Source: Hymenobacter sp. APR13
Lineage (GTDB): Bacteria; Bacteroidota; Bacteroidia; Cytophagales; Hymenobacteraceae
Length of the DNA: 64,000 nucleotides
Direction of reading: 5' to 3'
NCBI RefSeq assembly: GCF_000737515.1
Contig: NZ_CP006587.1
Span: 3,591,001-3,655,000, forward strand
The position numbers were made by a program, and so were the translations under genes. The notes beneath the pieces were generated by a model. The model did no database searches and was not told the DNA's origin. It saw nothing but the letters and a program-made list of their open reading frames with translations. Below, piece after piece: positions 17,061-44,001 of this stretch. Position 1 is the first letter of the stretch. Every line of letters starts with the position of its first letter.

Positions 17061-17136
17061 GATTCTGTAGCTCAGCTGGTAGAGCAATACACTTTTAATG
17101 TATGGGTCCTGGGTTCGAATCCCAGCGGGATCACCA
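17061..17136 (+). tRNA. tRNA-Lys (UUU anticodon)
   Basis: A complete 76-nt cloverleaf can be folded. The acceptor stem GATTCTG pairs with the 3' strand CGGGATC (two G-T pairs). The D arm is GCTC/GAGC, the anticodon stem ATACA/TGTAT encloses the loop CTTTTAA (anticodon TTT), and the T arm is CTGGG-TTCGAAT-CCCAG. The 3' CCA is encoded. It is monocistronic, with its own promoter upstream and a terminator immediately downstream. Confidence 0.97.
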
Positions 17137-17423: not shown

Positions 17424-18359
17424 TCAGGCTGGAAGCGGGGTGGCGGCTACCACCTCGTCCACGTGCTGCTCGAAGAACTCGTCGCACCAGCGGCACACGT
17501 TCTGCAGGTCCTCGGTGCGGGCCAGGGCATGTGCTTCCGACACGCCGATGGATTCGCCCATCTTCCAGGGCTCGCCCTGGTTGAGGCGCTGCATGATTTC
17601 AGACTGAGAGGCGCGCAGCAGTACGTCGGCTACCTTTTCGCGGCGGGCGTCGCCGAGCGGGAACTTGGTGCCAGGGCAGCAAGGGTTGATTTTCCAGAGT
17701 TGAATGCTGATTTCCTGCGGCAGATCGGTGCCGCCCAGGAAGCCCTTGGCCCCCGACAGGATGGCGCAGAAGTTGTGGCTGGGGTCGCGCAGCCAGATGT
17801 TTTTCTCCATGGCCCGGCCGCGGGCCCAGTTGCCGCCCAGCCACATTTCCTCGGTGGCGCCCCAATAGCCCCAGCTCAGGCGGTGGCCTTCTACCAGCAG
17901 GTGCTCTTTGTCGATGAGCGGGTCGTGGTCGTCGCCGTTGACGCCGCGGCTCTCAAACAGGTCGGCCAGCGTCATCAGGCGGGCTCCGGCGGCTTTGTGG
18001 TAGCGGTCGATGCTGGCAATATCGAAGCGGGTGACGCCTTTGGCAATCAGCAGATCCAGGATTTCGGGCGTGAGCAGGTCGCCGTTGGTCTGGAGCATAA
18101 TCTGGGTGCGGCCCTGGTACTTGGCCTGCAGCGCCTCCAGAATCGAATACAGCTTCACCCGGTCGGCCAGCGGCTCCCCGCCCGACAGAATCAGGCGGTC
18201 GACCCGCTCCGGCAGGTTATCGATGATGCGGAAGCAGTCCTGCACGCTGATGCGCGTACCCTGCGGGCCAGAGTCGTTGTAGCAATGGTCGCACTTGTCG
18301 TTGCAGAGCTGGGTGAACACCCAATAAATGGATTCGCAGTGCGTGAAGTCGGTTTTCAT
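17424..18359 (-). CDS. Radical SAM enzyme with C-terminal cysteine pairs
   Basis: The 311-residue protein binds a [4Fe-4S] cluster through C19, C23 and C26 (CNDKCDHC, CX3CX2C) and uses SAM to start radical chemistry. GGEPLAD near residue 66 is the SAM-binding motif, and MLQTNGDLL and FDIASIDRYH fit the TIM-barrel strands. Extra cysteines in NPCCPGT near 225 and NVCRWCDEFF near 285 suggest a SPASM/twitch-like auxiliary cluster or a metal site. The ATG at 18359 places the cluster motif at the usual distance from the N-terminus. It is the last gene of the YnjB-like transporter block, so it may process the imported compound. The exact reaction is unknown. Confidence 0.85.
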   Translation of the reverse strand: MKTDFTHCESIYWVFTQLCNDKCDHCYNDSGPQGTRISVQDCFRIIDNLPERVDRLILSGGEPLADRVKLYSILEALQAKYQGRTQIMLQTNGDLLTPEILDLLIAKGVTRFDIASIDRYHKAAGARLMTLADLFESRGVNGDDHDPLIDKEHLLVEGHRLSWGYWGATEEMWLGGNWARGRAMEKNIWLRDPSHNFCAILSGAKGFLGGTDLPQEISIQLWKINPCCPGTKFPLGDARREKVADVLLRASQSEIMQRLNQGEPWKMGESIGVSEAHALARTEDLQNVCRWCDEFFEQHVDEVVAATPLPA

Positions 18360-18362
18360 GTA

Positions 18363-18445
18363 GGGCTTAGTTGTTAGCGCCAAGTTGTTCGTGCTTGGTG
18401 CCTAGGTCGTTTGACCTAAGCACTAAGCACCAGCTACTAGGCACT
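18363..18445. repeat. GTGCTTAG/GTGCCTAG-unit inverted repeat in the ATPase-radical SAM gap
   Basis: Units of the form GCTTGGTGCCTAGGTC are followed by the roughly complementary GACCTAAGCACTAAGCACC. The array fills the gap and appears to supply the last codons and stop (18437-18439) of the ATPase gene. The arrangement resembles the other gene-end repeats, with a different unit. Confidence 0.55.
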
Positions 18446-19171
18446 AAATGCGGTGCGCTGGATAGTGTCCCAGAAAGACAGTTCGGCGGCAATATTGGTG
18501 CGTGGGTCCTGGATAAAGTCGGCGACGGAGGCGAAGCTGCTCAGCGTGCCGCGGTCGAGGTAGGCGAAGCGGGTACCGACGGTGAGGGCCTCGCGGCTGT
18601 CGTGCGTGACGAAGAGCGAGGTAATCTGGTGTTGCTCACTGACGCGCCGAAACAGCTCCTGCATGGCGGCGCGGGTCTGGGCATCGAGGTTGCCGAAGGG
18701 CTCATCGAGCAACAGCAGGCGCGGCCGGATGATGAGGGCCCGCCCAAACGACACGCGCTGCCGCTGCCCGCCCGACAGCTGGTGCGGTGCCTTACGGGCG
18801 TGCTCACTCAGCTCCAGCTCAGCCAGCAGGGCCGTTACCTGGGCGTTGATTTCGGCCTCTTTCACGTGGCGGATGCGCAGCCCGAACGCCACGTTCTCGA
18901 ACACCGTGAGGTGTGGAAACAGCAGGGGCTCCTGGTAGAGGTACACCATCTGCCGCTCGTTGGGCGGCACCGGGCGCAGGTCGTGGCCGTGCAGGGTGAG
19001 CGTGCCGGTTTCGGGCGTTTCGAGGCCAGCCAGGATCTTGAGGAGCGTGGTTTTGCCACAGCCCGAGCGGCCCAGCACCGCCAGCACCTCGCCCTCGCGC
19101 AGCTCCAGGGAAATGTCGCGCAAGACGGGCTGGCCGTTGAACTGTTTGGATAGCTTAGAAACGCTGAGCAT
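18437..19171 (-). CDS. ABC transporter ATP-binding protein (YnjD-like)
   Basis: The 244-residue ATPase powers the adjacent permeases at the inner membrane. Walker A is GRSGCGKTT near residue 34, the Q-loop is YLYQEPLLF near 80, the signature is LSGGQRQRV near 132, Walker B is LLLLDEPFGNLD near 155 and the H-switch is VTHDSREA near 188. Length and motifs fit the iron/thiamine/spermidine importer group (PotA/FbpC/YnjD type). The partner binding protein looks like YnjB, which is why I call it YnjD-like. The gene lies between a zinc-ribbon gene and a radical SAM gene on the same strand. Confidence 0.9.
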   Translation of the reverse strand: MLSVSKLSKQFNGQPVLRDISLELREGEVLAVLGRSGCGKTTLLKILAGLETPETGTLTLHGHDLRPVPPNERQMVYLYQEPLLFPHLTVFENVAFGLRIRHVKEAEINAQVTALLAELELSEHARKAPHQLSGGQRQRVSFGRALIIRPRLLLLDEPFGNLDAQTRAAMQELFRRVSEQHQITSLFVTHDSREALTVGTRFAYLDRGTLSSFASVADFIQDPRTNIAAELSFWDTIQRTAFSA

Positions 19172-19241
19172 GGAGTTGGTAGTGGGAGAGGTTGGTGCGG
19201 AAAACCCGCCGCAAGCAGTCAGAGGAGATGTAGGGGGCGGG

Positions 19242-19541
19242 CTAAGCCGGACACTGATTGATCATACTGGTCGTCGTGAAGCAATCCAGGCACACGAATA
19301 CGTGGATCACGCAACAATCCATCAGGTCGTACGCATCCCCGATGGAATCCACCTGCGCGTAAAATGTCATGGTGTCCGAGCACTCCGGGCAAGTCGGATA
19401 CACCACCTCACCTGCCGAATCAGGCTTACCTCCCAGCTTGTGTCTGGTCCCCGCAACGTCGTTCCACTGGTAGCCAACCGCTTGTTTCGCTGCCTCAGAC
19501 TCGGGCTGCGGCACCATCTTTATTTCCGGTATTTCCTCCAT
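19242..19541 (-). CDS. Small zinc-ribbon protein within the transporter block
   Basis: The 99-residue product contains HKLGGKPDSAGE, then YPTCPECSDTMTFYAQVDS, then CCVIHVFVCLDC and a final Cys. The spacing CPEC...CLDC indicates a zinc ribbon, and KLGGxP followed by CPEC..M.F.AQ.DS recalls the C-terminal part of DUF1963/YwqG-like proteins, here without the rest of that domain. No signal peptide is present. It lies between the permease and ATPase genes on the same strand, so it is probably co-transcribed. Its role is unknown; a metal- or partner-binding accessory protein is possible. Confidence 0.7.
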   Translation of the reverse strand: MEEIPEIKMVPQPESEAAKQAVGYQWNDVAGTRHKLGGKPDSAGEVVYPTCPECSDTMTFYAQVDSIGDAYDLMDCCVIHVFVCLDCFTTTSMINQCPA

Positions 19542-19652
19542 TTTTTCACTGTAATCTGAGAGTTGAAAGCAGGTTGATTCAGTGCGGAGAAGTTGCCGCG
19601 CAATGGCTAATCGTGCTTTGCTGATGGTTGAAACCTGCCTTCCGGCCTTAAG

Positions 19653-20414
19653 CTACGGCTTCCGGAGCAGGGCAGATTTGTTGGCCAGCAGCAGCAGGGC
19701 CGGCGGCAGCAGCAGCAGCAGCGAGGCCACGGCCGCCAGCGGGGCGTTGGCCTCGCCCACGTAGGTGAACACCTGCACCGTGAGCGTACGCACTTTGCCC
19801 ACGCTCAGCAGGTTGGTCAGGCCGAAGTCAAACCAGCTCAGCAGAAACGTCTGGACCAGGGTGGTGCGCAGCAGCGGCCAGGCCAGCGGCAGCAGCACCA
19901 GCCGCAACGCCTGCCGGGGCGTGCAGCCCAGGGTGCGGGCCAGCTGCTCGTACTCGGTGGCCTGGCGGGTCCAGAAGCTGCCTAGCAGCAACGTGGCAAA
20001 CGGCAGCGCCACCAGCAGCAGCCCCAGCAGCACGCCGCCCACCGAGCCCGAAAGGTGCATCCGGATGATAAACGGCTGCACCAGCACCGCCAGCAGCACC
20101 GGCGGCAGGGCGTAGGGCAGGTAGCTGAGCAGCAGCCAGCGTTGCCCGCCGCCAGTGCGGGCCACAGCACGCGCCACCCCGAAGCCCCCGGCCGTAGCTA
20201 CCACCGCCACCGAGCCCGCCAGCAGCAGACTGCGGCCCAGGCCGGCCAGCAGGTCGTTGTCGGCGGAGAGCAGGCTACGTATAGCAGCCAGCGAGTAGGC
20301 GGGCGGCAGCGCGTCGGGAAACCGCCAGCCTTCTCCTACGGCCAGCAGCCCCAGCAGCCCAAACGGCAGCAGGAACAGGGCGGCAAGCAGGAAAACGAGC
20401 AGTCTGGAGCGCAT
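19653..20414 (-). CDS. ABC transporter permease, second subunit (YnjC C-half-like)
   Basis: The 253-residue inner-membrane protein has about six hydrophobic segments. Its cytoplasmic EAA loop (EYEQLARTLGCTPRQALRLVLLPL, residues ~165-190) docks on the ATPase. It would pair with the permease encoded immediately upstream. In E. coli the YnjC permease is one fused protein of two such halves, whereas here they are separate genes. Imported substrate is unknown. The gap to the first permease gene (20415-20475) contains GTGATGAG repeats. Confidence 0.88.
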   Translation of the reverse strand: MRSRLLVFLLAALFLLPFGLLGLLAVGEGWRFPDALPPAYSLAAIRSLLSADNDLLAGLGRSLLLAGSVAVVATAGGFGVARAVARTGGGQRWLLLSYLPYALPPVLLAVLVQPFIIRMHLSGSVGGVLLGLLLVALPFATLLLGSFWTRQATEYEQLARTLGCTPRQALRLVLLPLAWPLLRTTLVQTFLLSWFDFGLTNLLSVGKVRTLTVQVFTYVGEANAPLAAVASLLLLLPPALLLLANKSALLRKP

Positions 20415-20423
20415 TTTTTTATT

Positions 20424-20446
20424 TGGTGATGAGGTGATGAGGTGAT
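20424..20446. repeat. GTGATGAG tandem repeat between the permease genes
   Basis: Three copies of GGTGATGA-type octamers occupy the 61-bp gap between the two permease genes. The same octamer opens the repeat at 16137. Confidence 0.6.
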
Positions 20447-20475
20447 GAAGGGAGCGTGCTAGCTGGTTAGCTGTG

Positions 20476-21333
20476 TCAGTTTTTTTCGGCCTGGGTTACC
20501 CGCAGCACCCGGAGCAGCAGGGCAATCAGCAACAGCAGGCCCACCGCCACCAGGAAGCCTGCCAGGTAGGCGGCGGGCAGCTCGCTCAGGTCGAAGCGTT
20601 GGAGGCGGGTGGCGATGTATACGCTCAGCATTTGGGGGTAGGGGCGGCCCAGCAGCAGCGGGATGTCGTAGGCGCCAAGCGTGGCAATGATGCTGAGCAG
20701 CAGCGTGGGCGCCGCCCGGCGCAGCAGTACCGGCACCGCCACCCGCCACCGGAACTGCCCGGGCCTAGCGCCCAGCGTCAGGGTGAGCTGGCGGTAGTCG
20801 TCGAGGCGACTTTCGTGGTAGATTGTTTGGAGCAGCAGCGTCAGGAACGGGAACAGCAGCAGCACGTGGGCCAGAATGATGCCCAGGCCAGCGGCGTCCT
20901 GCACCAGCTCCGGAAACGCCTCGGGGCTGCCGGTCAGGCCCAGCCGGAAGCTAATCCGGGAAAGCCAGCCGGCCCCGCTTAGCAGCTGAAACAGGTAAAA
21001 CGCCACCACCAGCGCCGGCATGATCAGGGGCACGTAGAGCAGGCCCGGCAGCGGCCACCGCCGCAGCGCGGGTTGCGCGTGCAGCACCAGCCCTAGCGCC
21101 AGCGCCACCGAAACGCCCACCGCCGCCGTGGCAATCCACAGGCTATAGAGCGCCGCGTAGAGCAGGCCGGTATCGTGAAGGAGGGCCTGCCAGTGCTGGC
21201 CGGTGAAGCCCGTAGCCAGCGGCCCCACCACGCCCACGCTGCCCAGGGCCGCGTAGCCGAGCCCGGCCAGCGGCAGGCCGGCCACCAGCAGGGCATACAG
21301 CAGCAGGATCCAGGAACGGTTAGCGGGTTTCAA
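20476..21333 (-). CDS. ABC transporter permease, first subunit (YnjC N-half-like)
   Basis: The product, about 285 residues, has six predicted membrane segments (ILLLYALLVAGLPLAGLGY, YALYSLWIATAAVGVSVAL and others). The EAA loop YRQLTLTLGARPGQFRWRVAVPVLL lies near residue 190. It would form a heterodimer with the downstream permease. No ATG occurs at the expected N-terminus; a TTG at 21333 (KPANRSWILL) is the best start. The frame is open further upstream to 21531, but only through repeat DNA, so longer versions are unlikely to be real. The gap to the binding-protein gene carries two different REP-like elements. Confidence 0.8.
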   Translation of the reverse strand: MKPANRSWILLLYALLVAGLPLAGLGYAALGSVGVVGPLATGFTGQHWQALLHDTGLLYAALYSLWIATAAVGVSVALALGLVLHAQPALRRWPLPGLLYVPLIMPALVVAFYLFQLLSGAGWLSRISFRLGLTGSPEAFPELVQDAAGLGIILAHVLLLFPFLTLLLQTIYHESRLDDYRQLTLTLGARPGQFRWRVAVPVLLRRAAPTLLLSIIATLGAYDIPLLLGRPYPQMLSVYIATRLQRFDLSELPAAYLAGFLVAVGLLLLIALLLRVLRVTQAEKN

Positions 21334-21360
21334 AAAAGAGGAGAGTTTCAGATTTAAGAG

Positions 21361-21400
21361 AGGGTCATTCCGAGCGTAGCCGAGGAATCTCGCGTGCTGA
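21361..21400. repeat. GTCATTCCGAGC-family element
   Basis: This copy reads GTCATTCCGAGCGTAGCCGA followed by GGAATCTCGCGTGCTGA. It closely matches the copy at 16181-16219 and lies between the binding-protein and permease genes. Confidence 0.7.
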
Positions 21401-21507
21401 CGTTGTCGGAGCAGCTCGCCCGCTTCGGAGCAACGAATGCGCCTCACCCCCGGCCCCCTCTCCGGAAAGGAGATGGGGAGCCTGACGAATAGGGTAATTT
21501 GGCGAGC

Positions 21508-21534
21508 GAGATGCTTCGCTTCGCTCAGCATGAC
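21508..21534. repeat. GTCATGCTGAGC-family element (single arm)
   Basis: The minus strand reads GTCATGCTGAGCGAAGCGAA then GCATCTC. It is one arm of the family found as paired arms at 22801, 35063, 39139, 40131 and 42656. It lies 14 bp beyond the stop codon of the binding-protein gene. Confidence 0.75.
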
Positions 21535-21548
21535 ATTCGGCAGTCGTT

Positions 21549-22775
21549 CTATCCGGCCGGAACGGGCTGCTTTTCGATAACGTAGGTGCGGAAGTCCTTG
21601 AACAGGCGGGTCATGTACTCCGGGTCGGGCTCCATGATGGCCTGACCCTGGATGTTCTGGCGGCGGGGCGCGTAGCGGCGCGAAGGTAGCTGCTCAAACT
21701 GCTGCCGCTGCGCCGCGGGCAGCGCCTGCAGATTCAGCACGGTATGGTCGCCCCACACGTTGGGGTCCATTTTGCGCAGTTGGGCTTCCGGCGAAAGCAG
21801 GAAGTTGATGGCCACCAGCGCCGCCTCGGGGTGGCGGGCGCCGCGCACCACGCCCAGGTAGTGCGAGTTCTGGATGGTGCCCGGCAGCGGCACGTAGGCA
21901 CGGGCCGTGGCCGGAAACACCTTCTGGTTGACCTTGTTGTCCACCTCGGCGTCGTTGTTGGAAAACGTGAAGGCTACCTCGCCGTTGGCAAACAGCTGGT
22001 GCAGCGGCGCCAGCTGCTCCGGAAACGTCTGGCCCTGCTTCCAGAAATACGGCCGGCTGGCGTTGATCTGCCGCCACAGCGCGCCCGACCACTTCCGGTA
22101 CACACCCTCATCAAACTTGCCCCGGAACAGCTCCGGCTTGCCCGACAGCGCTATCATCCACGACTTGAGCAGCGTCATGCCCGTGAATTCGTTCGGGATG
22201 GTGAACTGGCCGGGGTGGGCCTGCACGAAGGCTGGCAGCTCGGCAAACGAGCGGGGCGGCCGCGCCACCCGCGCCGAGTCGTAGATGAAGTTGAACTGCA
22301 CGTTGCCCCAGGGCGCTTCCATGCCCGCCACCGGCTGCTGAAAATCGGTGTTGATGAACGGGTTCTGCATATCCAGCAGCCGGGCGTTCGGCAGCTTGTC
22401 CACGAAGGGCCCCAGCAGGGCATCCACCTGCCGCAGCTGGTAAAACGTCTCGCCGTTGATCCAGACCATATCGGCCTCACTGGGCTGCCCGGCCTGCAGC
22501 TCGGCGGCCAGCGTCTGAACCAGTTGCGCACCCTGGCCGGCCGCAATTTCCAGCTCGATGCCGTAGCGCCGCTGCAGCTCGGGCTTCACGTAGGTGCTCA
22601 TGTAGCGGTTGATGAGCGGGTCGCCCATCCACATCAGCATGCTCACGGTCTGGCCTTTGGCGGCCGCCTCTATCTGCGGCCAGGTTTGGGTGAGCACCTG
22701 CTGTGGCTCCCGCGCCTTGTCGGTGGGGTTGCAGGCGGAGAGCAGGGCGAGGATAGGGAAAAGGTATTTTTTCAT
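21549..22775 (-). CDS. ABC transporter substrate-binding lipoprotein, YnjB-like
   Basis: The 408-residue protein has a lipoprotein signal (MKKYLFPILALLSAC) and would sit in the periplasm tethered to the membrane. Several stretches resemble E. coli YnjB: MVWINGETFYQLRQ, PFINTDFQQPVAGMEAPWG, INFLLSPEAQLRKMDPNVWG and DHTVLNLQALPAAQR. YnjBCD has no firmly established substrate. The ATG at 22775 gives the lipobox at the right place. It lies between a TonB-dependent receptor gene and the two permease genes on the same strand, supporting outer- to inner-membrane transfer of one ligand. Confidence 0.88.
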   Translation of the reverse strand: MKKYLFPILALLSACNPTDKAREPQQVLTQTWPQIEAAAKGQTVSMLMWMGDPLINRYMSTYVKPELQRRYGIELEIAAGQGAQLVQTLAAELQAGQPSEADMVWINGETFYQLRQVDALLGPFVDKLPNARLLDMQNPFINTDFQQPVAGMEAPWGNVQFNFIYDSARVARPPRSFAELPAFVQAHPGQFTIPNEFTGMTLLKSWMIALSGKPELFRGKFDEGVYRKWSGALWRQINASRPYFWKQGQTFPEQLAPLHQLFANGEVAFTFSNNDAEVDNKVNQKVFPATARAYVPLPGTIQNSHYLGVVRGARHPEAALVAINFLLSPEAQLRKMDPNVWGDHTVLNLQALPAAQRQQFEQLPSRRYAPRRQNIQGQAIMEPDPEYMTRLFKDFRTYVIEKQPVPAG

Positions 22776-22800
22776 TCGTTGGGAAGGTAATGTCAAAGAA

Positions 22801-22895
22801 CGTGTCATGCTGAGCTTGCCGAAGCATCTCTACCGCTTCGTTGAATTCATGCAGGCGAAGCGGTAGAGATGCTTCGGCAAGCTCAGCATGACACG
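22801..22895. repeat. GTCATGCTGAGC-family paired element, 40-bp perfect stem
   Basis: Arms 22801-22840 and 22856-22895 are perfect inverted copies separated by a 15-nt loop beginning TTG and ending GCAGG. The arm runs from CGTGTCATGCTGAGC to TACCGCTTCG. It lies between the TonB receptor gene and the binding-protein gene. The copy at 35063 has the same loop length and the same loop ends. Confidence 0.85.
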
Positions 22896-22913
22896 CACAT
22901 CCGTTTTGCCTGA

Positions 22914-25900
22914 CTACAGCGCGTAGCGCAGCCCGAACTGGAACTGGCGCGGGGCGCTGGCGTTGCGGCGCACGATGCCCGAGCCAGCCGCGCCCACCTG
23001 AATCTGGTTGCTTTGGGTGGCGTTGTTGGCGTAGCCGCTCAGGTTCTGGGTGTTGAGCACGTTGAACACGTCGGCGGTCAGCTCCAGGCGGCTGGTTTTC
23101 TCGCCGAAGTGCAGCGAGTACTGCGCGCCCACGTCAAACGTCTTCGACCAGGGCAGACGGTCGGAGTTGCGGCCTTCGCCGGGGAAACGGTCGGCGTTGC
23201 CCTGGTAGGCAGTGCTGAACGAGCTGCCGTCGCCGTTCAGGTCGTTGGTGAGCACCACCGGGTTGCTGCCCGGCACCGGGTAGCCGCCCGTCACGCGGTT
23301 TACGGGCTGGCCGCTTTGCAGCAGCGAGGCCACCGTGAGGCGCAGCGCCCGCACCGGGTAGTAGCTGCCGATGGCGTTGATGACGTGCGTACGGTCATTG
23401 ATGGAGTTGGCGAATTCCTGGCCGTAGTTGTTGGCGTCGGCGGCGCGGAAGTTCACGTCCTCGGTGTCGTTTTTCAGGTTCGACAGCGTGTAGGACACGC
23501 GGTAGCCGTACTTGTCTTCGGCGGCATCCTTCTGCAGGTTGAAGCTGGCGCCCATGTAGCGCGAGCGGCCTTCCGACTCGGTCATCACCACGTTGCGGGC
23601 CACGCCCGTTACGCGCTGGCCGCCAATCAGGGCGCTGCCGTCGGCCAGAATAGGCACGGGACGGGTGGCGTTGGCCTGGGTTTCGGTGCGCACGGTCACG
23701 TTGTTGGGGTCGGTCTGCGGGTACTCCGATACGCTGTTGACGTTGCGCAGGCGGAACAGGTCGTAGCTGCGGTTGTACACCAGATCCACGAAAAACAGGG
23801 TCTTGGTGTTCACCTGATACTGGTAGCCCAGCGTGCTCTGGTGCGAATACGGGTTCTGGTAGCCGTTGGGGTTGAGAATGCGCCGCTCCCCGCTCGAAAC
23901 GCCGGCCCGCTGGCCTTGTAGCGTAGAGCCCGAAGGGCCCTGCAGATACGTTACGCCGGCCACGCTGCCGCTCTGGTTGCCATCGAACGTAATCCGGTCG
24001 AAGTTGGTGCTGGCAGGCAGCGCGCCCACCCGCACCAACTCGCGCAGCTGGGTTTTGTAGTCGGCGGAGGTGGTGTTTTGCTGCAGCGCGTCGCTGTACA
24101 CGGTGTACAGGATCTTGTCGTAGAACAGGCCGTAGCCGCCGCGCAGGCTGCTGCGGTCCGTGAGCTGCAGGTTGAAGTTAGCGCGCGGGGCCACGTTGTT
24201 CCGGTCGCCGTTGGCGGCGCCGCCCTTCGAGAGGTTGTCGTAGTCGTAGCGCACGCCCAGCGTCACGTTCAGGCGGTCCGTCACGGCATACAGGTCTTCC
24301 ACGTAGATATTGTACAGGTTCTGCGTGGTGCCGAACGAGGCCGGCCGTAATTCCACGCTGTAGTTGTTTACCTGCACGTTGGCCGGAATGTCGTTGATGC
24401 CCAGGCCGGGCCCGAGGTTGCGGGCCCGCAGCGCATCAAGCTGGGCCTGCGTGAGCTGCACGGTGTAGCTGCCGTTAGGGTTGCCGCCGCCGAACAGCGA
24501 GTGCTCAGTGCTGATAACCCCGAAGCCGCCCTTGAAGGTGTTGCGGCCGCGCAGCAGCGTGAATTTCTGCTGGGCCTGCCAGGTGCTCTGGTGCGAATCG
24601 AACAAGTAGCCGGGGTGGCCTAGCACCGCCAGCACCTGCCGTGTTGGGCCCAGTACTGTCACGTCGGGGCTGTCGGGGTTGTCGGCGCTGGCGTAGTTCC
24701 AGCGGAAGCGGGCGTACTGCACATCGGTCTGCGAGGTGAAGTTGTTGCCCACGTACACGTTCTGCGAGGCGATGTTGATAGAGTTGCGGTCCTGGCGGTT
24801 GCCAGTCGACGGGAAGGCTATGCCGCCGTCGAGGCCGCCGCCCTGGCGCTCAATGTTCACGAGGCCCACGTTGGCCCGCAGCGACGAGCGGAACCGCTCG
24901 GTCCAGCGCTGGTCGAGCTTGCCGGAGAGGTAGGTGAAGCGGTTCTGGCCGCGCACGGTGGCCGCCACGCCCAGGTCGGGCGAGGTCAGCACGTTGTCCT
25001 TGAAGTCGAAGGTCTGCTCGGCGTTCAGGTAGAAGAACGTCTTGTCCTTCACCAGCGCCCCACCCACGCCAAAGCCGAATTGCTGGCGCTGGAAGCCGCC
25101 TTTCACCTGGTTGCCCGACAGGTCGCGCTGCGCAAAATCGGTCTTGCCGTCGATGCTCGGGCCGGGCCGGGTCAGGTAGAAGGCCTCGGCCGTCAGGTCG
25201 TTGGAGCCGGATTTGGTGGTGATGTTGACGATGCCGTTGGCCGAGTTGCCGAACTCGGTGCTGAAGTTGTTGGTCAGTACGTTCAGGTTCTGGGCGAAGC
25301 CCACCGGCATGGCAAAGCGCTGCCCGCCCAGGAAGTTCTCGTTGTTGTCGAGGCCGTCGATCAGGTAGTTGGTGTAGAGGCCGTTGGCGCCGTTGATGCT
25401 CACGTTGGGTGCTTCCGCGAAAAAGCCCGTGGCCTGCGTCACGTTGGGCAGGCGGTAGAGGGCGCGCGTGATGTCGCGGGCCTCAATGGGAATCTCGCGC
25501 AGCTCCCGCGCCGACAGCTGCGAGGCTACCTCGGCGTTCTGGGTGTTGAGGGTGGTGGCGTTGTTGGGGGCCCGCACCGTCACGCCTGTCAGGGTTTGGG
25601 CGCTGGCCAGCGGCAGCACCAGCGTCACGCTGGGGCTGGAGTTGGCGCGCAGCGTAAGGCCCGTTTCGCGCACGGCCTGAAACCGGTCCGATACCTCGGT
25701 GCTCACGGTGTAGGTGCCAGCCGTGCTCAGCCCCCGGAAGCGAGTCTGGCCCTGGGCGTTGGTGGTTTGCTGGGCGCTGAAGCCCACGGCGGCGTTATCG
25801 AGGTGTACCAGCTGGCCCGCCACGGGCTTGCGCGTCGAGACGTCCACGATGGACACCACCAGATCAACCGACTGCGCCAGGGCACCGGAAACCGGCCCGC

Positions 25901-25940
25901 CCAGCAGCAGGAAAAGCAACACATAGAAAAGATTTTTCAT
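22914..25940 (-). CDS. Oar-like TonB-dependent outer-membrane receptor
   Basis: The 1008-residue protein has a signal peptide (LLFLLLGGPVSGALAQ), then a carboxypeptidase-regulatory-like beta-sandwich (residues ~24-115), a plug domain (YLIDGLDNNENFLGGQ, FSTEFGNSANGIVNITTKSG) and a 22-strand-type barrel ending FQFGLRYAL. The plug motif FGNSANGIVNI is typical of the OmpA-related (Oar) family. It should import a large or scarce ligand across the outer membrane using TonB energy. It is the first gene of a co-directional block with a YnjB-like binding protein and permeases. A GC-rich hairpin lies in the upstream leader at 25989-26015. Confidence 0.9.
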   Translation of the reverse strand: MKNLFYVLLFLLLGGPVSGALAQSVDLVVSIVDVSTRKPVAGQLVHLDNAAVGFSAQQTTNAQGQTRFRGLSTAGTYTVSTEVSDRFQAVRETGLTLRANSSPSVTLVLPLASAQTLTGVTVRAPNNATTLNTQNAEVASQLSARELREIPIEARDITRALYRLPNVTQATGFFAEAPNVSINGANGLYTNYLIDGLDNNENFLGGQRFAMPVGFAQNLNVLTNNFSTEFGNSANGIVNITTKSGSNDLTAEAFYLTRPGPSIDGKTDFAQRDLSGNQVKGGFQRQQFGFGVGGALVKDKTFFYLNAEQTFDFKDNVLTSPDLGVAATVRGQNRFTYLSGKLDQRWTERFRSSLRANVGLVNIERQGGGLDGGIAFPSTGNRQDRNSINIASQNVYVGNNFTSQTDVQYARFRWNYASADNPDSPDVTVLGPTRQVLAVLGHPGYLFDSHQSTWQAQQKFTLLRGRNTFKGGFGVISTEHSLFGGGNPNGSYTVQLTQAQLDALRARNLGPGLGINDIPANVQVNNYSVELRPASFGTTQNLYNIYVEDLYAVTDRLNVTLGVRYDYDNLSKGGAANGDRNNVAPRANFNLQLTDRSSLRGGYGLFYDKILYTVYSDALQQNTTSADYKTQLRELVRVGALPASTNFDRITFDGNQSGSVAGVTYLQGPSGSTLQGQRAGVSSGERRILNPNGYQNPYSHQSTLGYQYQVNTKTLFFVDLVYNRSYDLFRLRNVNSVSEYPQTDPNNVTVRTETQANATRPVPILADGSALIGGQRVTGVARNVVMTESEGRSRYMGASFNLQKDAAEDKYGYRVSYTLSNLKNDTEDVNFRAADANNYGQEFANSINDRTHVINAIGSYYPVRALRLTVASLLQSGQPVNRVTGGYPVPGSNPVVLTNDLNGDGSSFSTAYQGNADRFPGEGRNSDRLPWSKTFDVGAQYSLHFGEKTSRLELTADVFNVLNTQNLSGYANNATQSNQIQVGAAGSGIVRRNASAPRQFQFGLRYAL

Positions 25941-26045: not shown

Positions 26046-26747
26046 TCAGAGAGTTGGTGGGCCGCGCTGCGGCAGCATGGCCGCTGCAGCCAGTAGGCTC
26101 GGCCGAAGCCGGAGCACGGGCCGCAGCGGCTGCTCGGCGGCCAGAATAGTGTGCAGACGGCTGCGGAAAGAACCGGCAGGTAGCCAAGCTAGCAGGCCGG
26201 CAAAATCGTGGGCCGTGTCTACATCGGCGAGGGGGCGCAGGGTGGCCACGGCCGCGCCGGCCCGGTGCAGGCAGCGGCGCAGCGCGTGCCCCAGGGCGGC
26301 CGTCTGCCAGGGCAGCGCAACCCAGGCTTCGGCCTCGAAAAAGCGGCGGTGCAGCCCCAGCAGGTACACGCCCCCATCGAGGGCGGGGCCCAGCACGGCG
26401 TCGGTGGTGTGCAGGGCGCGCACAGCCTGCCGTACCAGGGCGGGCGTCAGCTGCGGGCAGTCGTTGCCGATAACCACCAGCTGCTCGTAGCCCAGTTCAA
26501 ACCCATACGCCAGCGCCGACGCCAGCCGCTGCCCGAAGGTGCGCCCGCTTTGCTCGCCCGACTCCACGCACACAAAATCAACGCCTGCCTGCCGGGCCGT
26601 GGCGCTGGCGCGCGCAATCAGCTGCGCCGCAATGGCCGCCGCCGTCCGTCGCCCCCGTCCAAACGATTTGTGCGCGGCTTCCTCACCCGCCGGGCGGGTG
26701 AAAAGCAGAATGGCGGCACGGGCGGGCGTAGCGGGCAAGAGAAACAA
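26046..26747 (-). CDS. TIGR04282/DUF2064-family glycosyltransferase-like protein
   Basis: The product is about 233 residues with a nucleotide-sugar-transferase-like fold. AILLFTRPAGEEAAHKSF near the start, VVIGNDCPQLTPALVRQA in the middle and DAVLGPALDGGVYLLGL after it are hallmarks of the DUF2064 (TIGR04282) family. No ATG fits; TTG codons at 26747 or 26738 are the likely starts, so the N-terminus is uncertain. It is the last gene of a four-gene operon that also encodes a TIGR04283 glycosyltransferase, and these two families commonly occur together. The acceptor is unknown. Confidence 0.75.
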   Translation of the reverse strand: MFLLPATPARAAILLFTRPAGEEAAHKSFGRGRRTAAAIAAQLIARASATARQAGVDFVCVESGEQSGRTFGQRLASALAYGFELGYEQLVVIGNDCPQLTPALVRQAVRALHTTDAVLGPALDGGVYLLGLHRRFFEAEAWVALPWQTAALGHALRRCLHRAGAAVATLRPLADVDTAHDFAGLLAWLPAGSFRSRLHTILAAEQPLRPVLRLRPSLLAAAAMLPQRGPPTL

Positions 26748-26880
26748 GTAGTAGTGTGGGTAGTAAAGCGGGGCGGGGTACTGGCAAGTTAGGCGGTAGC
26801 CGGCAGTCAGCGGCAGCCAAGGCCGGGTGGCCTGTTTGCTGACGCACGTACGCAGCCGGCGGCCGGTTCGGTTTAGTTGC

Positions 26881-27795
26881 TCACTCGTAGAAATTGCGCA
26901 TCCGGCGCATCGTGGTGAGCACCACCCAGTCGCCGAGGCGGGGCGCGTAGGTGTGCACGATGGCAATCAGCCAGCCCAGCGCCGAAATAACGGTGCGCTG
27001 CCGCCGTCGCCGGATGTGTCGAACGATGATGGCCGCCACTTCGGCCTGGGTTTTCTGCCAGCGTGGCGGGCGGTGCGCAATGGGCACTGGCTGGCCCTGG
27101 GCGTCGAGTACGCGCTTGTCGTCGTCGTTTTGGGTGAAGCCGATGTGCACCACGCCGAAGTGCACGCCGGTGCCGTCCAGCTCCAGGCGCAGGGTGTGGG
27201 CCAGGTTAGTGAGGGCCGCTTTGCCGGCGCAGTAGGCCGAGCCGCTGGGCATGCCGTTCAGGGCCGAAATCGAGGAAATAAACGTGACGCTGCCGCGGCT
27301 GGCGAGCAGGTGCGGCAGGGCGGCTTTCAGCGGAAATACGGCCCCGTACACGTTGCTGTCGAGCACCTGCCGGAACACGTCGGGCTGCATGTCGGCGAAG
27401 TAGGCGCGCTGCGAGATGCTGGCATTGGCCACCAGGATATCCAGCCGGCCAAACTCCCGGATAGCCGTAGCCACCAGCGTTTCGCAGGCGGCGTAGTCGG
27501 TTACGTCAGCCACGCAGGTGGCCACCAGGTAGCCGGCGGCGGCCAGCTGCTGGCGTGTGAGTTCCAGGCGCTCGGCCTGGCGCCCGTTGAGCACCACGGC
27601 GGCTCCGGCGGCGCACAAGGCCCGCGCCGTTTCGCGCCCGATGCCCGACTCCGAGCCCGTGACGATGGCCACCCGGCCCGCAAACTGCCCGGTGCGCGGC
27701 AGCGGCAGCGGCTGGGGCAGCTGCGGCAGTGCGGCGGCAAGCGATGGGGAAGGAATAGGTGGTAAGTCGGCAGAAGCCGGTTGAGAATCAAACAT
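26881..27795 (-). CDS. Short-chain dehydrogenase/reductase with proline-rich N-terminus
   Basis: The 304-residue SDR has TGSESGIG near residue 47, a substituted NAS (VANASISQR) at the usual NNAG position, the catalytic Ser in FISSISALNG and YCAGK as the YxxxK motif. A Ser/Pro-rich stretch of about 35 residues precedes the Rossmann fold. The ATG at 27795 overlaps the end of the upstream epimerase gene by 8 bp, indicating translational coupling. Context suggests oxidation or reduction of a sugar or lipid made by this operon; the substrate cannot be determined. Confidence 0.87.
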   Translation of the reverse strand: MFDSQPASADLPPIPSPSLAAALPQLPQPLPLPRTGQFAGRVAIVTGSESGIGRETARALCAAGAAVVLNGRQAERLELTRQQLAAAGYLVATCVADVTDYAACETLVATAIREFGRLDILVANASISQRAYFADMQPDVFRQVLDSNVYGAVFPLKAALPHLLASRGSVTFISSISALNGMPSGSAYCAGKAALTNLAHTLRLELDGTGVHFGVVHIGFTQNDDDKRVLDAQGQPVPIAHRPPRWQKTQAEVAAIIVRHIRRRRQRTVISALGWLIAIVHTYAPRLGDWVVLTTMRRMRNFYE

Positions 27796-28777
27796 ACTGA
27801 TGGGCTTTAAACCACGCGAAGGCCTCGGCGGCGGCCTGCCCGATAGGCGTTTGCGGCAGCGCCAACTCGTGCCGGGCTTTCTGCACGCTGAAATAATGAC
27901 CGTCGTTGGCGACGGCGGCCATGGCGGCATTGAGCTGGCCCGGCCGGCCCGTAAGGCGCGCCTGCATTTCGGCAAACGCCCCATACAGGCGCGCCAGCCC
28001 GCCCGGAATGGGCCAGCGCGGCGGTGCCACGCCCAGCACGCCGGCCAGCTGCCGGAAGGCGTCGCGGTAGCTCAGGTTTTCGTTGCCGAGAATGTAGGAT
28101 TCGCCTATGCGGCCCATGGTCAGGGCATTGATGGTGGCCACGGCCACGTCGTGGACGTGCACGTAGTTTTTGCCGCCGGGCGGATAGCCGGGCAGCCGGC
28201 CACGGTACAGCTCCAGCAGCAGGGCGTTGGAGGTGGGCCGGGCGTCCTGCGGGCCCAGCATGAAAGTGGGGTGCACCAGCACGGCCGGCAGCTGCCACTC
28301 GGCCACGGCGCGCAGCACCCGGTCGGTGGCGGCGCGCTTGCTGTCCATGTAGTCGAGGCCGTAGCGGGCGCCGGCGTAGGGGCGCGTTTCGTCGCCGGGG
28401 TCGGTTAGGGTTCCGAAGCCGAAGACGTTGGCTGTGCCTACGTACACGAAGCGCGCCACCCCGGCCTGCCGGGCCAGGTCCAGCATAGCGGCCGTGCCGG
28501 CGTCGTTCACGGCCCACACGGCGGGGTTGCGGGCGGGGTTCACCTGGGCCAGGGCTGCGGCGTGCACGATGGCCGCGCAGCCATCGGCGAGGCCGGCGAG
28601 GGTGGCGGGCTGGGTGAGGTCGGCGAAGCGGTAGTCCACGGCCCAGGCGGCCGGGAAGGGCGGGGGCGTGCCGGGCCGCACCAGCGCCCGCACGGGCAGG
28701 CCGCGCCGGTGTAGCTCGGCCACCAGGTGGCGGCCCAGAAAGCCATTGGCCCCGGTTACGAGAACGGGCGCCGGCAT
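27788..28777 (-). CDS. NAD-dependent epimerase/dehydratase (extended SDR)
   Basis: The 329-residue protein has an N-terminal TGANGFLGRHL cofactor motif, a HAAALAQVNP segment, TANVFGFG in place of the usual Ser/Thr strand and YMDSK as YxxxK near residue 145. Later motifs (LVHPTFMLGP, YVHVHDVAVATINAL) fit the dihydroflavonol-reductase/3-beta-HSD-like branch of extended SDRs. Its start overlaps the stop of the upstream glycosyltransferase gene by one base, so the operon is tightly coupled. Confidence 0.88.
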   Translation of the reverse strand: MPAPVLVTGANGFLGRHLVAELHRRGLPVRALVRPGTPPPFPAAWAVDYRFADLTQPATLAGLADGCAAIVHAAALAQVNPARNPAVWAVNDAGTAAMLDLARQAGVARFVYVGTANVFGFGTLTDPGDETRPYAGARYGLDYMDSKRAATDRVLRAVAEWQLPAVLVHPTFMLGPQDARPTSNALLLELYRGRLPGYPPGGKNYVHVHDVAVATINALTMGRIGESYILGNENLSYRDAFRQLAGVLGVAPPRWPIPGGLARLYGAFAEMQARLTGRPGQLNAAMAAVANDGHYFSVQKARHELALPQTPIGQAAAEAFAWFKAHQYV

Positions 28778-29469
28778 CAGCGGTGGTTGATCATGGCCTT
28801 GTAGGTGCGCGCAATCCGGACCGGCGACACCTTCAGAAAGTACAGCGAAAACGCCGTCAGGTTGGCCAGCTGCACCCGCAGCCAGCTGTTGTGCTCATAC
28901 TTGCGGGCCGAAACTACCACGTCCTGCGGCACAATCAGGAAGCGCGCCACGCGCCGGATGCGCTGGATGATGTCGAAGTCCTCCATCACCACAAACTGCT
29001 CCCGGAAGCCCCCCAGCTGCCCAAACAGCTCCCGCGTGACAAACAGCGTCTGGTCGCCGCCGCGGCTCATGATGCCCTTGAAGCGGGTGCCGTAGCTGTT
29101 GAAGCGCAGCAGCGGGTGCTCGGAATCGAAGCGGAACCGGTAGCAGCCGGCGGGGTAGCCGTCGGCCACGGCCTGCCGGATGGTGGCTGCAAAGTCGGGG
29201 TGAATCTGCACGTCGGCGTGCACGAAGTAGAGAATGTCGCCGGTGGCGTGGGCGGCGCCGTGGTTCATCTGGGCGGCGCGGCCGGGCTTGGGGGCCGGCA
29301 GCACGGTGGCGCCGGCCTGCCGGGCCACTTCGGCGGTGCCATCGGCGCTGTTAGCGTCTACAACCAGGATTTCGGGAGCTTCGGCGGATCCGTAGTGGCG
29401 CAGCTCCTGCACCAGCCGGCCAATATTGGCGGCCTCATTATAGGTAGGAATGATGATGCTGATGGTCAT
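28777..29469 (-). CDS. TIGR04283 family glycosyltransferase (GT2 fold)
   Basis: The 230-residue protein begins SIIIPTYNEAANIGRLV, typical of GT-A family 2 enzymes, followed by ILVVDANSADGT and YFVHADVQIHPDF (a DxD-like HAD variant). KYEHNSWLRVQLANLT near the C-terminus is usual for the TIGR04283 subgroup. The enzyme would transfer a sugar from an activated donor at the inner face of the membrane. It is the first gene of the four-gene operon, with a repeat element at its 5' side and no recognisable promoter. Confidence 0.9.
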   Translation of the reverse strand: MTISIIIPTYNEAANIGRLVQELRHYGSAEAPEILVVDANSADGTAEVARQAGATVLPAPKPGRAAQMNHGAAHATGDILYFVHADVQIHPDFAATIRQAVADGYPAGCYRFRFDSEHPLLRFNSYGTRFKGIMSRGGDQTLFVTRELFGQLGGFREQFVVMEDFDIIQRIRRVARFLIVPQDVVVSARKYEHNSWLRVQLANLTAFSLYFLKVSPVRIARTYKAMINHR

Positions 29470-29710: not shown

Positions 29711-30802
29711 TCAAAACGCTTCTCCAACGGTCAGGTAGAACCCGCTGGATTCTTTGCCGAGGCCGTAGTCGAGGCGCAGGTTGAGGTGGTCGCGGCGGTT
29801 GAGGGTGAAACGCAGGCCGGCGCCGTACGCGCCCTTGGGCTGGCGCAGGCGCAAGCCGTCGGCGGCGTCGCCGAGGGTGCCTACGGAGCCGAAAGCTACG
29901 GCTCCCAGCCGTTTATACACGGCCAGGCGCAGCTCGGTTTGCAGCAGGGCCGCGTGCTGGTCGCGGAAACGGCCTTCGTAGTAGCCCCGCATCCGGCGCG
30001 TGCCGCCCAGCAACGACAGCGCGTTGAACGGGGCCGTACCGGCCGTGAAGCTGGCGAAGTAGTTCAGGGCCAGCACCGCCCGCCGGTTCAGGCTGTGGTA
30101 CGACGACACGTCGGCCGAGTAGCGGCTGAAGTGGGTGGTGCCCAGCGGGCCGGTGTTGTCGGCGCGGTTGCGAATCATGCCGGTCAGGTCGGCCACCACG
30201 CCTTTGGTGGGGAAGAACAGGTTGTCGCGCGAGTCGAAGAACACGCCCAGGCCGCCGCCATGCAGCCGGCTGCCCAAGCCGCCCGGCACGCGGCCGCTGG
30301 CCAGCTGCCCGCCGTCTTCGGTGGTCGTCACGTCGTAGTCTTCCAGTTGGTAGCGCAGCCCGGCGTAGAGCTTGCCGGCGGCCAGGGTCGGGGCCACGCG
30401 GCGGAAGGCGTTGAGGCGCACCCGTGGGAAATTGACGCCGTACAGCTCACGCGGCACGGCCTGCTCGCCCACGCCGTAGAAATAGTAGTTGTAGCGGTAG
30501 TAGCCCGCCTCGCCGTAGGCGTAGTAGGTGTTGTGCTGGTAGAACACCTGAAACGGCAGATACAGCAGCAGCTGCCGGTTCTGGGTGTAGGCGGCACCCA
30601 GCGTGAACTGTGAGGGCCGGGCATCAGTGAAGGCGGAATCCTGGCGGAAGCGCACGGTGAACACCAGCGCGGCCCCGTAGGCCAGCCGGGTTTCCGGGGT
30701 GTAGTAGACGAGTGGCAGCGGCAGCACCGACAACCGGCGGGTGGTGCTGTCGGGCGGTGGAGCCTGCGTGGCCAGGGCCAGCAGCACGGAGGTCAGCAGC
30801 AT
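29711..30802 (-). CDS. Omp85/BamA-type outer-membrane barrel protein
   Basis: The 363-residue protein has a signal peptide (MLLTSVLLALATQA) and then mostly amphipathic beta strands. GGGLGVFFDSRDNLFFPTKG, LLGGTRRMRGYYEGRFRD and the final LNLRLDYGLGKESSGFYLTVGEAF are typical of the Omp85 surface-antigen barrel. The protein lacks POTRA domains, as in the short patatin- or metallophosphatase-associated barrel group. The ATG at 30802 gives a proper signal peptide. It is divergent from the DUF547 gene. Transport or assembly substrate is unknown. Confidence 0.85.
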   Translation of the reverse strand: MLLTSVLLALATQAPPPDSTTRRLSVLPLPLVYYTPETRLAYGAALVFTVRFRQDSAFTDARPSQFTLGAAYTQNRQLLLYLPFQVFYQHNTYYAYGEAGYYRYNYYFYGVGEQAVPRELYGVNFPRVRLNAFRRVAPTLAAGKLYAGLRYQLEDYDVTTTEDGGQLASGRVPGGLGSRLHGGGLGVFFDSRDNLFFPTKGVVADLTGMIRNRADNTGPLGTTHFSRYSADVSSYHSLNRRAVLALNYFASFTAGTAPFNALSLLGGTRRMRGYYEGRFRDQHAALLQTELRLAVYKRLGAVAFGSVGTLGDAADGLRLRQPKGAYGAGLRFTLNRRDHLNLRLDYGLGKESSGFYLTVGEAF

Positions 30803-30979
30803 GCAGGAGGAAGGGGGTGAAACAGGCGTACGTAAGCGGTGCGGCACGGAGTTTGGCGCGGCTGCAATCTTTTTGTGATACCTCGCCCGTATATTCCGGC
30901 CAAACTGCTGCTACGGCCGCTGCGCCGGCCCCGTACCGCCGGCCACCGCCGCCGTATACTGCGGCAAATCCCCTTGCTT

Positions 30980-31780
30980 ATGAAACTGCCCAATCTGCCT
31001 GTTCGCGCCTTGTTCACTCTTCAGCTGGCTGCTGGCCTGGCCTTGGCTGCGCCGCTACCCACCCTGGCGGCCGTGCCCGCCGTAGCTGCCGCGCCAGCCG
31101 CCGCCCCCGACCATGCGGCGTTCGACAAGCTGCTCAAAAAGCACGTCAACAGCAAAGGCCAGGTGAACTACAAAGGCTTCAAGGCCGACGAAAAGGAGTT
31201 CAACCAGTACTTGGCGCTGCTGAGCAAGAATGCCCCGGCCGCTTCGTGGAGCAAGCAGGAGCAGATGGCCTACTGGATCAACGCCTACAACGCCTACACC
31301 ATCCGCCTGATCCTGGACCACTACCCGGTGCAGAGCATCAAGGATATCGGCTCGAAAATCAAGATTCCATTCGTGACCACGCCCTGGGCGGCCAAGTTCT
31401 TCAGCATCGGCGGTAAGAAGATGAGCCTCGACGAAATTGAGCACGGCACGCTGCGTAAGAAGTTCAACGACCCGCGCATTCACTTCGCACTGGTGTGCGC
31501 CTCCGTCTCGTGCCCCAGTTTGCGCAATGAGGCTTACACCGCCGCCAAACTCGACAGCCAGCTCGACGACCAGGGCCGTGACTTCGTGAACAACCCCGCC
31601 AAAAACAAGATCAGCAAGAGCAGCGCCCAGCTTTCCAAGTACTTCGACTGGTACAAGGGCGACTGGAGCGAGAACGGGCAGTCGGTGGTGAAGTGGGTGA
31701 ACAAGTACTCCACCACCAAGCTCGACGCCAACGCCAAAATCGACTTCCTGGACTACAACTGGAACCTGAATGAGCAATAG
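30980..31780 (+). CDS. Secreted DUF547 domain protein
   Basis: The 266-residue protein has a signal peptide (LAAGLALAAPLPTLA) and an Ala/Pro linker, then a DUF547 domain: WSKQEQMAYWINAYNAYTIRL, DEIEHGTLRKKFNDPRIHFALVCASVSCPSL. The family is widespread in Bacteroidota and eukaryotes; its biochemical function is not established, although the fold has papain-like features and the conserved Cys-Ser-Cys stretch could be functional. The ATG at 30980 was chosen because it starts the signal peptide. It is followed after 33 bp by another secreted protein gene, probably in one operon. Confidence 0.88.
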   Translation: MKLPNLPVRALFTLQLAAGLALAAPLPTLAAVPAVAAAPAAAPDHAAFDKLLKKHVNSKGQVNYKGFKADEKEFNQYLALLSKNAPAASWSKQEQMAYWINAYNAYTIRLILDHYPVQSIKDIGSKIKIPFVTTPWAAKFFSIGGKKMSLDEIEHGTLRKKFNDPRIHFALVCASVSCPSLRNEAYTAAKLDSQLDDQGRDFVNNPAKNKISKSSAQLSKYFDWYKGDWSENGQSVVKWVNKYSTTKLDANAKIDFLDYNWNLNEQ

Positions 31781-35062: not shown

Positions 35063-35153
35063 CGTCATGCTGAGCTTGCCGAAGCATCTCTACCGCTTCG
35101 TTGTGTAAGTGCAGGCGAAGCGGTAGAGATGCTTCGGCAAGCTCAGCATGACG
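35063..35153. repeat. GTCATGCTGAGC-family paired element, 38-bp perfect stem
   Basis: Arms 35063-35100 and 35116-35153 are perfect inverted copies with a 15-nt loop starting TTG and ending GCAGG. The arm sequence is the same as at 22801. It fills the gap between cysI and the dehydrogenase-exporter fusion gene. Confidence 0.85.
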
Positions 35154-43907: not shown

Positions 43908-44001
43908 GTTTTTATATGGTCAGGACTTGGCACCGTTTCGGAAGGTCCGCTGGTTGCCGGCGTTTCGTCGAGCCTGTCTCTCCACGCCTCTGTATAAAAA
44001 C
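43908..44001 (-). promoter_or_regulatory. SAM-I (S-box) riboswitch upstream of the sulfate assimilation operon
   Basis: The minus strand carries the S-box core in order: AGAGGCGTGGAGAGACAGGC, then TCGACGAAACGCCGGCAACC, a variable hairpin and CGGTGCCAAGTCCTGACC. A closing P1 helix GTTTTTATA/TATAAAAAC (43993-44001 with 43908-43916) is perfect. These are the conserved GGAGRGACYGGC, GAAAC..GGCAACC and GGTGCCAANTCC elements of SAM-I. SAM binding should lower expression of cysH and the following genes. No intrinsic terminator was found directly after P1, so the control mechanism is not clear, and the 312-nt distance to cysH is long. Confidence 0.92.

Follow-up and report, generated by a model that had tools for sequence, protein, structure and literature searches.

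An operon of an Oar-like receptor, a YnjBCD-type importer and a radical SAM enzyme in Hymenobacter, and its candidate ligands

What might a bacterium take up with an operon that joins an Oar-like TonB-dependent receptor, a YnjBCD-type ATP-binding cassette (ABC) importer and a radical S-adenosylmethionine (SAM) enzyme? The question is raised by a 64,000-nucleotide window of the Hymenobacter sp. APR13 genome (C1:3591001-3655000 of G000, 5.0 Mb; positions below are those of the window), in which a first-pass annotation made from the sequence had described seven genes read in one direction. All seven are present where it placed them, on the minus strand, together with a repeat:

17424..18359, minus strand: radical SAM enzyme with CxxxCxxC, five further conserved cysteines and a possibly twitch/SPASM-like C terminus (ATG start; PF04055 56.3 bits, cut-off 29.5)
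18437..19171, minus strand: ABC importer ATPase, YnjD/PotA/CysA-like (PF00005 129.7 bits; position kept in relatives)
19242..19541, minus strand: 99-residue CxxC, zinc-ribbon-like protein (probably a passenger)
19653..20414, minus strand: ABC permease 2 (PF00528 35.1 bits)
~20476..21333, start uncertain, minus strand: ABC permease 1 (PF00528 35.9 bits)
21549..22775, minus strand: YnjB-like substrate-binding lipoprotein (NF008633 379.2 bits, cut-off 203; lipobox cysteine)
22805..22891, unstranded: 87-base palindromic repeat in the gap between the Oar and YnjB genes (second copy at 35065-35151)
22914..25940, minus strand: Oar-like TonB-dependent receptor (PF25183 155 bits, PF07715 33.8 bits, PF00593 33.8 bits)

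The products would carry one ligand to the cytoplasm and modify it there. We report that receptor, importer and enzyme form a conserved block, that in relatives lacking the enzyme the importer is followed by nucleoside-processing genes, and that the block is linked to genes of arsenosugar biosynthesis. The reading that we tentatively favor is salvage of a 5-modified, arsenosugar-like riboside into a pathway that is fed de novo by ArsS.

Conservation of the receptor, importer and radical SAM unit

A phylum sample of 395 genomes was searched for the radical SAM enzyme, YnjB, ArsS and TIGR04283. The enzyme is encoded in 9 of these genomes and YnjB in 21, with 7 genomes encoding the two together; YnjB thus accompanies the enzyme in 7/9 genomes, compared with 14/386 others (Fisher 1.4e-8, not corrected for kinship). 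The two genes lie a few kilobases apart on one contig in six of the seven double-positive genomes, and on two contigs in the seventh (G280). GTDB genomes were also scanned with an alignment of the enzyme, and of 156 confirmed places the best 80, 20 of them Hymenobacter, were retained, a selection that favors relatives with identities of 64% or more. The resulting neighborhood set has 100 loci, two pairs of which (L040/L106 and L041/L118) are identical places, each fetched twice. A second genome set comprises G000 and 50 genomes encoding the enzyme (n=51); two of its members, G414 and G425, both ArsS-negative, coincide in contig coordinates with the phylum-sample genomes G275 and G283 and are the same genomes.

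Operon completeness was counted in the 68 radical SAM loci whose sequence extends 6 kb or more upstream of the enzyme gene. Sixty carry the receptor as well as the full set of four importer genes, two the importer only, three the receptor only, one a partial importer and two neither. The first-pass annotation had predicted co-occurrence in many genera, which these 60 loci bear out; the outcomes it named as counting against a unit, an enzyme found elsewhere mostly without the importer or a TonB gene unlinked in relatives, did not occur, the four importer genes being complete in 62/68 loci. The exact string Oar-YnjB-perm1-perm2-ABC-rSAM (rSAM being the radical SAM gene) is found in 57/80 loci, five more deviate merely by an extra downstream ABC gene or a gene read in two pieces, and the rest are truncated at contig ends or lack parts. 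Linkage outlives reordering, since L045 and L046, with enzymes of 35% identity, keep the genes together in the order rSAM-YnjB-fused permease-ABC. Their permease is a single protein of 577-585 residues, which fits the earlier description of the window permeases as YnjC split in two. That the operon is real, conserved and one linked block is well supported.

The receptor plug (PF07715) and barrel (PF00593) domains, plus PF25183, all exceed their cut-offs. For YnjB, of which 18 sequences were aligned (A2), a sequence search gave no solved structural relatives. The enzyme belongs to the radical SAM superfamily by both PF04055 score and CxxxCxxC motif, whose cysteines are invariant in 79 sequences. 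Five extra cysteines (C200, C229, C230, C291 and C294 in alignment A1) stand in columns that are 98.7-100% Cys over 79 relatives, and together with fold matches they may indicate a twitch/SPASM auxiliary domain; much of the C-terminal model has a predicted local distance difference test score below 50. The closest named relatives are from Hymenobacter, and none of the 25 best NCBIfam families (52 listed) reaches its own cut-off. The enzyme does not match the ArsS model: a TIGR04167 search of G000 (E <= 0.001) gave three places, none in the window. A family of ~120-residue proteins with a CxLC motif lies 3' of the enzyme gene in seven loci (for example, L089:9194-9556) and has no Pfam or NCBIfam match.

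The zinc-ribbon gene had been counted as part of the unit, and this is not borne out: it is found in 0/100 loci, and the 99-residue protein has 16 matches in 5.8 billion proteins, the window's own among them. It has no NCBIfam match, and Pfam gives just DUF7875 at 13.7 bits, under the cut-off of 27. We rejected it as a component; it is probably a passenger, in a slot that many Hymenobacter fill with a different gene pair. Clustering of genes from the 100 loci gave this pair, unclassified proteins of 206 and 217 residues (cl6 in 25 loci, cl7 in 22), whose genes usually sit between those of the permease and the ATPase or follow the radical SAM gene. A guess that they are GATase- or ThuA-like was dropped, there being no Pfam or NCBIfam match. 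There is no cl6 match in the window genome, and cl6 is present in 11/51 genomes searched.

Several further features lie in or near the operon. The longer permease 1 open reading frame, to 21531, enters repeat-like sequence (21334-21531, between YnjB and permease 1), one tested stretch of which is single-copy in the window. Both copies of the palindromic repeat have identical 26-base arms, and the first sits inside the operon. A tRNA gene (17061-17133, opposite strand) lies just beyond the operon 3' end. An Rfam search of the window and of L090, L084, L115 and L048 gave no riboswitch adjoining the operon; a SAM riboswitch at 43909-44000 (minus strand, 73.5 bits) lies upstream of a sulfate-assimilation cluster (CysD, CysN, CysJ, CysI and siroheme synthase).

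Exchange of partner enzymes

Fourteen YnjB loci of the phylum sample are without the radical SAM gene, and 11 of these were extended for neighbor analysis. Ten of the 11 carry a gene for a nucleoside-cleaving enzyme (seven like methylthioadenosine phosphorylase [MTAP] and three nucleoside hydrolases), and seven carry a gene for a kinase resembling methylthioribose (MTR) kinase, all on the importer's strand and shortly downstream of it; the remaining locus, L052, which reaches a contig end, has neither. No such gene was found on the operon strand in any of the 80 radical SAM loci, some of which are short downstream (0/80; a 27% MTAP-like match on the other strand of L124 was left out of the count). 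An ordinary purine nucleoside phosphorylase is encoded near the enzyme in five loci (L080, L115, L126, L128 and L134). An importer followed by either the radical SAM enzyme or nucleoside-processing enzymes points to a riboside, which, judged from gene content, is the most likely ligand. The first-pass annotation foresaw neither this alternative set of partners nor the ArsS and TIGR04282 pattern described below, both of which are clues to the ligand.

The exchange bears directly on the possibility that the ligand is a cofactor-like compound that has nothing to do with arsenic (resembling, for example, thiamine, queuosine or a metal chelate), with the neighborhood reflecting a habit of genomes in free-living Bacteroidota. 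The permeases weakly resemble ThiP, PhnV and ModB, the core of the radical SAM enzyme resembles those of NirJ, AhbD and MoaA, and habitat could drive co-occurrence. Against it, a riboside is what the exchange of partners suggests, and neither in the window nor in three radical SAM loci does a riboswitch adjoin the operon; we consider a cofactor-like ligand unlikely.

Links to arsenosugar biosynthesis genes

Returning to salvage of an arsenosugar-like riboside, its pathway side is suggested by the genes upstream of the receptor:

26046..26966, minus strand: divergent DUF2064 (CofC/TIGR04282-like) transferase (PF09837 85.7 bits; true start probably inside the open reading frame)
26881..27984, true start probably near 27690, minus strand: SDR oxidoreductase (NF004825 225 bits, cut-off 215)
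27788..28777, minus strand: HpnA-like NAD-dependent sugar epimerase (TIGR03466 222 bits, below cut-off 367.65)
28777..29469, minus strand: TIGR04283 'arsenosugar biosynthesis' glycosyltransferase (233.8 bits, cut-off 182)
29711..30847, minus strand: Omp85-like outer membrane protein (NF047779 81 bits, below cut-off 200)
30839..31780, plus strand: DUF547 gene, divergent from the cassette as in L156 (PF04784 113 bits, cut-off 27)

The DUF2064 gene is immediately upstream of Oar in 41 of the 56 loci with room for it. Its upstream neighbors in the window, the genes for the SDR, the epimerase and TIGR04283, have the same place in Hymenobacter actinosclerus (L063 and L153). The SDR gene is also kept in L156, where the Omp85-like gene again adjoins TIGR04283; the Omp85-like gene was not found in L153, and the SDR/epimerase/TIGR04283 cassette is absent from L154 (Hymenobacter sp. 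BRD67). The earlier description of the unit therefore holds for the receptor, importer and enzyme, and needs correction at both points where extent is concerned: the zinc ribbon falls out, and the linked block reaches upstream to 30847, taking in the DUF2064, SDR, epimerase and TIGR04283 genes that it missed. Beyond the far end of the operon, another SDR gene of NCBI family NF004825 (15335-16141, 315 bits) is read from the opposite strand.

This arrangement recurs at an ArsS cluster. Past the Omp85-like gene, the window has DUF547 and DUF6134 genes on the other strand, and in G166, a genome of the same genus without the operon, DUF6134 and DUF547, Omp85, TIGR04283, epimerase and SDR genes are arranged as in the window; the cassette there continues into the arsenosugar-associated peroxidase TIGR04169 and ArsS, where the window has the operon. 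ArsS of G000 lies 0.9 Mb from the operon, accompanied by TIGR04169, rhodanese and TIGR04282. A single gene run in L115 (616-14689) combines the operon with ArsM-like (181 bits, below cut-off), rhodanese, TIGR04282, purine nucleoside phosphorylase, DUF547 and TIGR04283 genes, and ArsM-like genes lie inside or beside the operon in L112, L115 and L135.

The co-occurrence of TIGR04282, a family that NCBI names for arsenosugar biosynthesis ('arsenosugar' transferase), follows the same lines. It scores over cut-off in 22/22 ArsS-negative sample genomes with YnjB and/or the radical SAM enzyme, versus 13/58 controls without YnjB, the enzyme or ArsS (picked from 110 drawn); by genera, this is 13/13 versus 8/44. 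In the second set, it is over cut-off in 49/51 genomes (41 of the 42 that are ArsS-negative), with ArsS in 9/51. Canonical TIGR04282 genes lie inside 7/50 radical SAM loci, with ~0.23 expected (six exceed the cut-off and one is truncated at a contig end); because L126 and L134 look alike, as do L105 and L110, these are about five events. TIGR04283 is present in 15/20 ArsS-negative YnjB genomes versus 51/219 others.

We propose that a small molecule containing a ribose modified at its 5 position would pass through the Oar-like receptor and YnjBCD-type importer to the cytoplasm, with flux directed inward. It would there join a pathway whose late part consists of the TIGR04282- and TIGR04283-type transferases and the DUF2064 paralogue, and which in organisms making arsenosugars is supplied de novo by ArsS. 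Where relatives lack the radical SAM enzyme, the first cytoplasmic step would be cleavage by the MTAP-like enzyme or nucleoside hydrolase, often joined by the MTR-kinase-like enzyme; in the window operon, the radical SAM enzyme would replace the cleavage enzymes, and our guess is that it oxidizes or opens the sugar part of the ligand.

Several observations weigh against this proposal. First, 5/68 loci carry the enzyme without any importer gene; L079, L100, L111 and truncated L131 have enzyme and receptor and no importer, two relatives of 50% identity (G272 and G390) lack a YnjB match genome-wide, and three same-genus sample genomes have neither enzyme nor YnjB. Second, TIGR04283 is no commoner with the enzyme in the sample (4/9, p 0.75), being over cut-off in 26/50 radical SAM genomes versus 200/395 of the phylum sample, and the DUF2064 protein scores 106.4 bits against TIGR04282, below the cut-off of 134. 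Third, ArsS is depleted with YnjB (1/21 versus 155/374), which we read as uptake replacing synthesis, although an unrelated pathway would explain it equally well; ArsS and the operon occur together in the window genome. Fourth, ArsM (NF008823) is not enriched (10/22 YnjB and/or enzyme genomes versus 16/30 controls; arsenosugar-specific NF038099 was not searched in genomes), and an arsenic pathway by way of this family is thus not supported; the test is weak, because ArsS genomes are themselves only 15/28 positive. Among the ArsM-like genes, those of L112 and L115 and the first one in L135 score under the ArsM cut-off; the second one in L135 is over it. Finally, kinship was handled solely by counting genera. 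Arsenic as the heteroatom is the weakest link, and an arsenosugar is possibly the ligand. The stronger version, a dedicated arsenosugar or arsenonucleoside transport with which free-living Bacteroidota, mostly without ArsS synthesis, scavenge by Oar and YnjBCD and process by phosphorylase or hydrolase plus kinase or by a new radical SAM enzyme, is a doubtful though possible one.

Salvage of ordinary 5'-modified nucleosides (methylthioadenosine, 5'-deoxyadenosine or methylthioribose), with the radical SAM enzyme as the alternative for salvage and arsenic playing no part, would account for the MTAP-like and MTR-kinase-like partners and for the lack of ArsM enrichment. It leaves unexplained the TIGR04282 association, the ArsS-cluster synteny and the ArsM-like genes in or beside the operon, and the phosphorylase and kinase score far under the family cut-offs (105 versus 274.85; 73 and 118 versus 275); we regard it as improbable. 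That the enzyme is a non-orthologous ArsS, adenosylating an imported methylated arsenical so that the operon makes arsenosugars de novo, would suit the scarcity of ArsS (8/50 radical SAM genomes) despite TIGR04282 and the ordinary phosphorylase near the enzyme in five loci, but is very unlikely, since YnjB genomes lacking the enzyme are also without ArsS (0/14) and have TIGR04282, so that the importer, not the enzyme, carries the pattern, and the window genome holds both ArsS and the enzyme.

Comparison with known systems

Literature searches gave no paper on this operon and no described arsenosugar or arsenonucleoside transport system, and we know of no established substrate for YnjBCD importers. 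Partner exchange and the link to TIGR04282 and TIGR04283 give a short list of testable ligands for this orphan importer; if the ligand proved to be an arsenosugar, the environmental arsenic cycle would gain an uptake arm and radical SAM enzymes a new reaction.

The window binding protein is in the same curated subfamily as that of Escherichia coli YnjBCD (NF008633), and the importer anatomy is alike; the window differs in its split permease and in the linked TonB receptor and radical SAM enzyme, neither of which is known at the E. coli locus. Compared with BtrN and other twitch/SPASM enzymes, the window radical SAM enzyme has ~17% identity. Methylthioadenosine and MTR salvage (MTAP and MtnK) has a phosphorylase and a kinase homologous to those after the importer in loci without the radical SAM enzyme, whereas both of the latter are far under the family cut-offs and neither is on the operon strand of the 80 radical SAM loci. 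The ArsS cluster (TIGR04167, TIGR04169, TIGR04282, TIGR04283, rhodanese and DUF547) shares the DUF547/Omp85/TIGR04283/epimerase/SDR neighborhood with the window and has TIGR04282, purine nucleoside phosphorylase and rhodanese in common with some operon relatives. YnjB and ArsS, in contrast, are seldom in one genome (1/21), and the operon has another radical SAM enzyme and adds a receptor and an importer.

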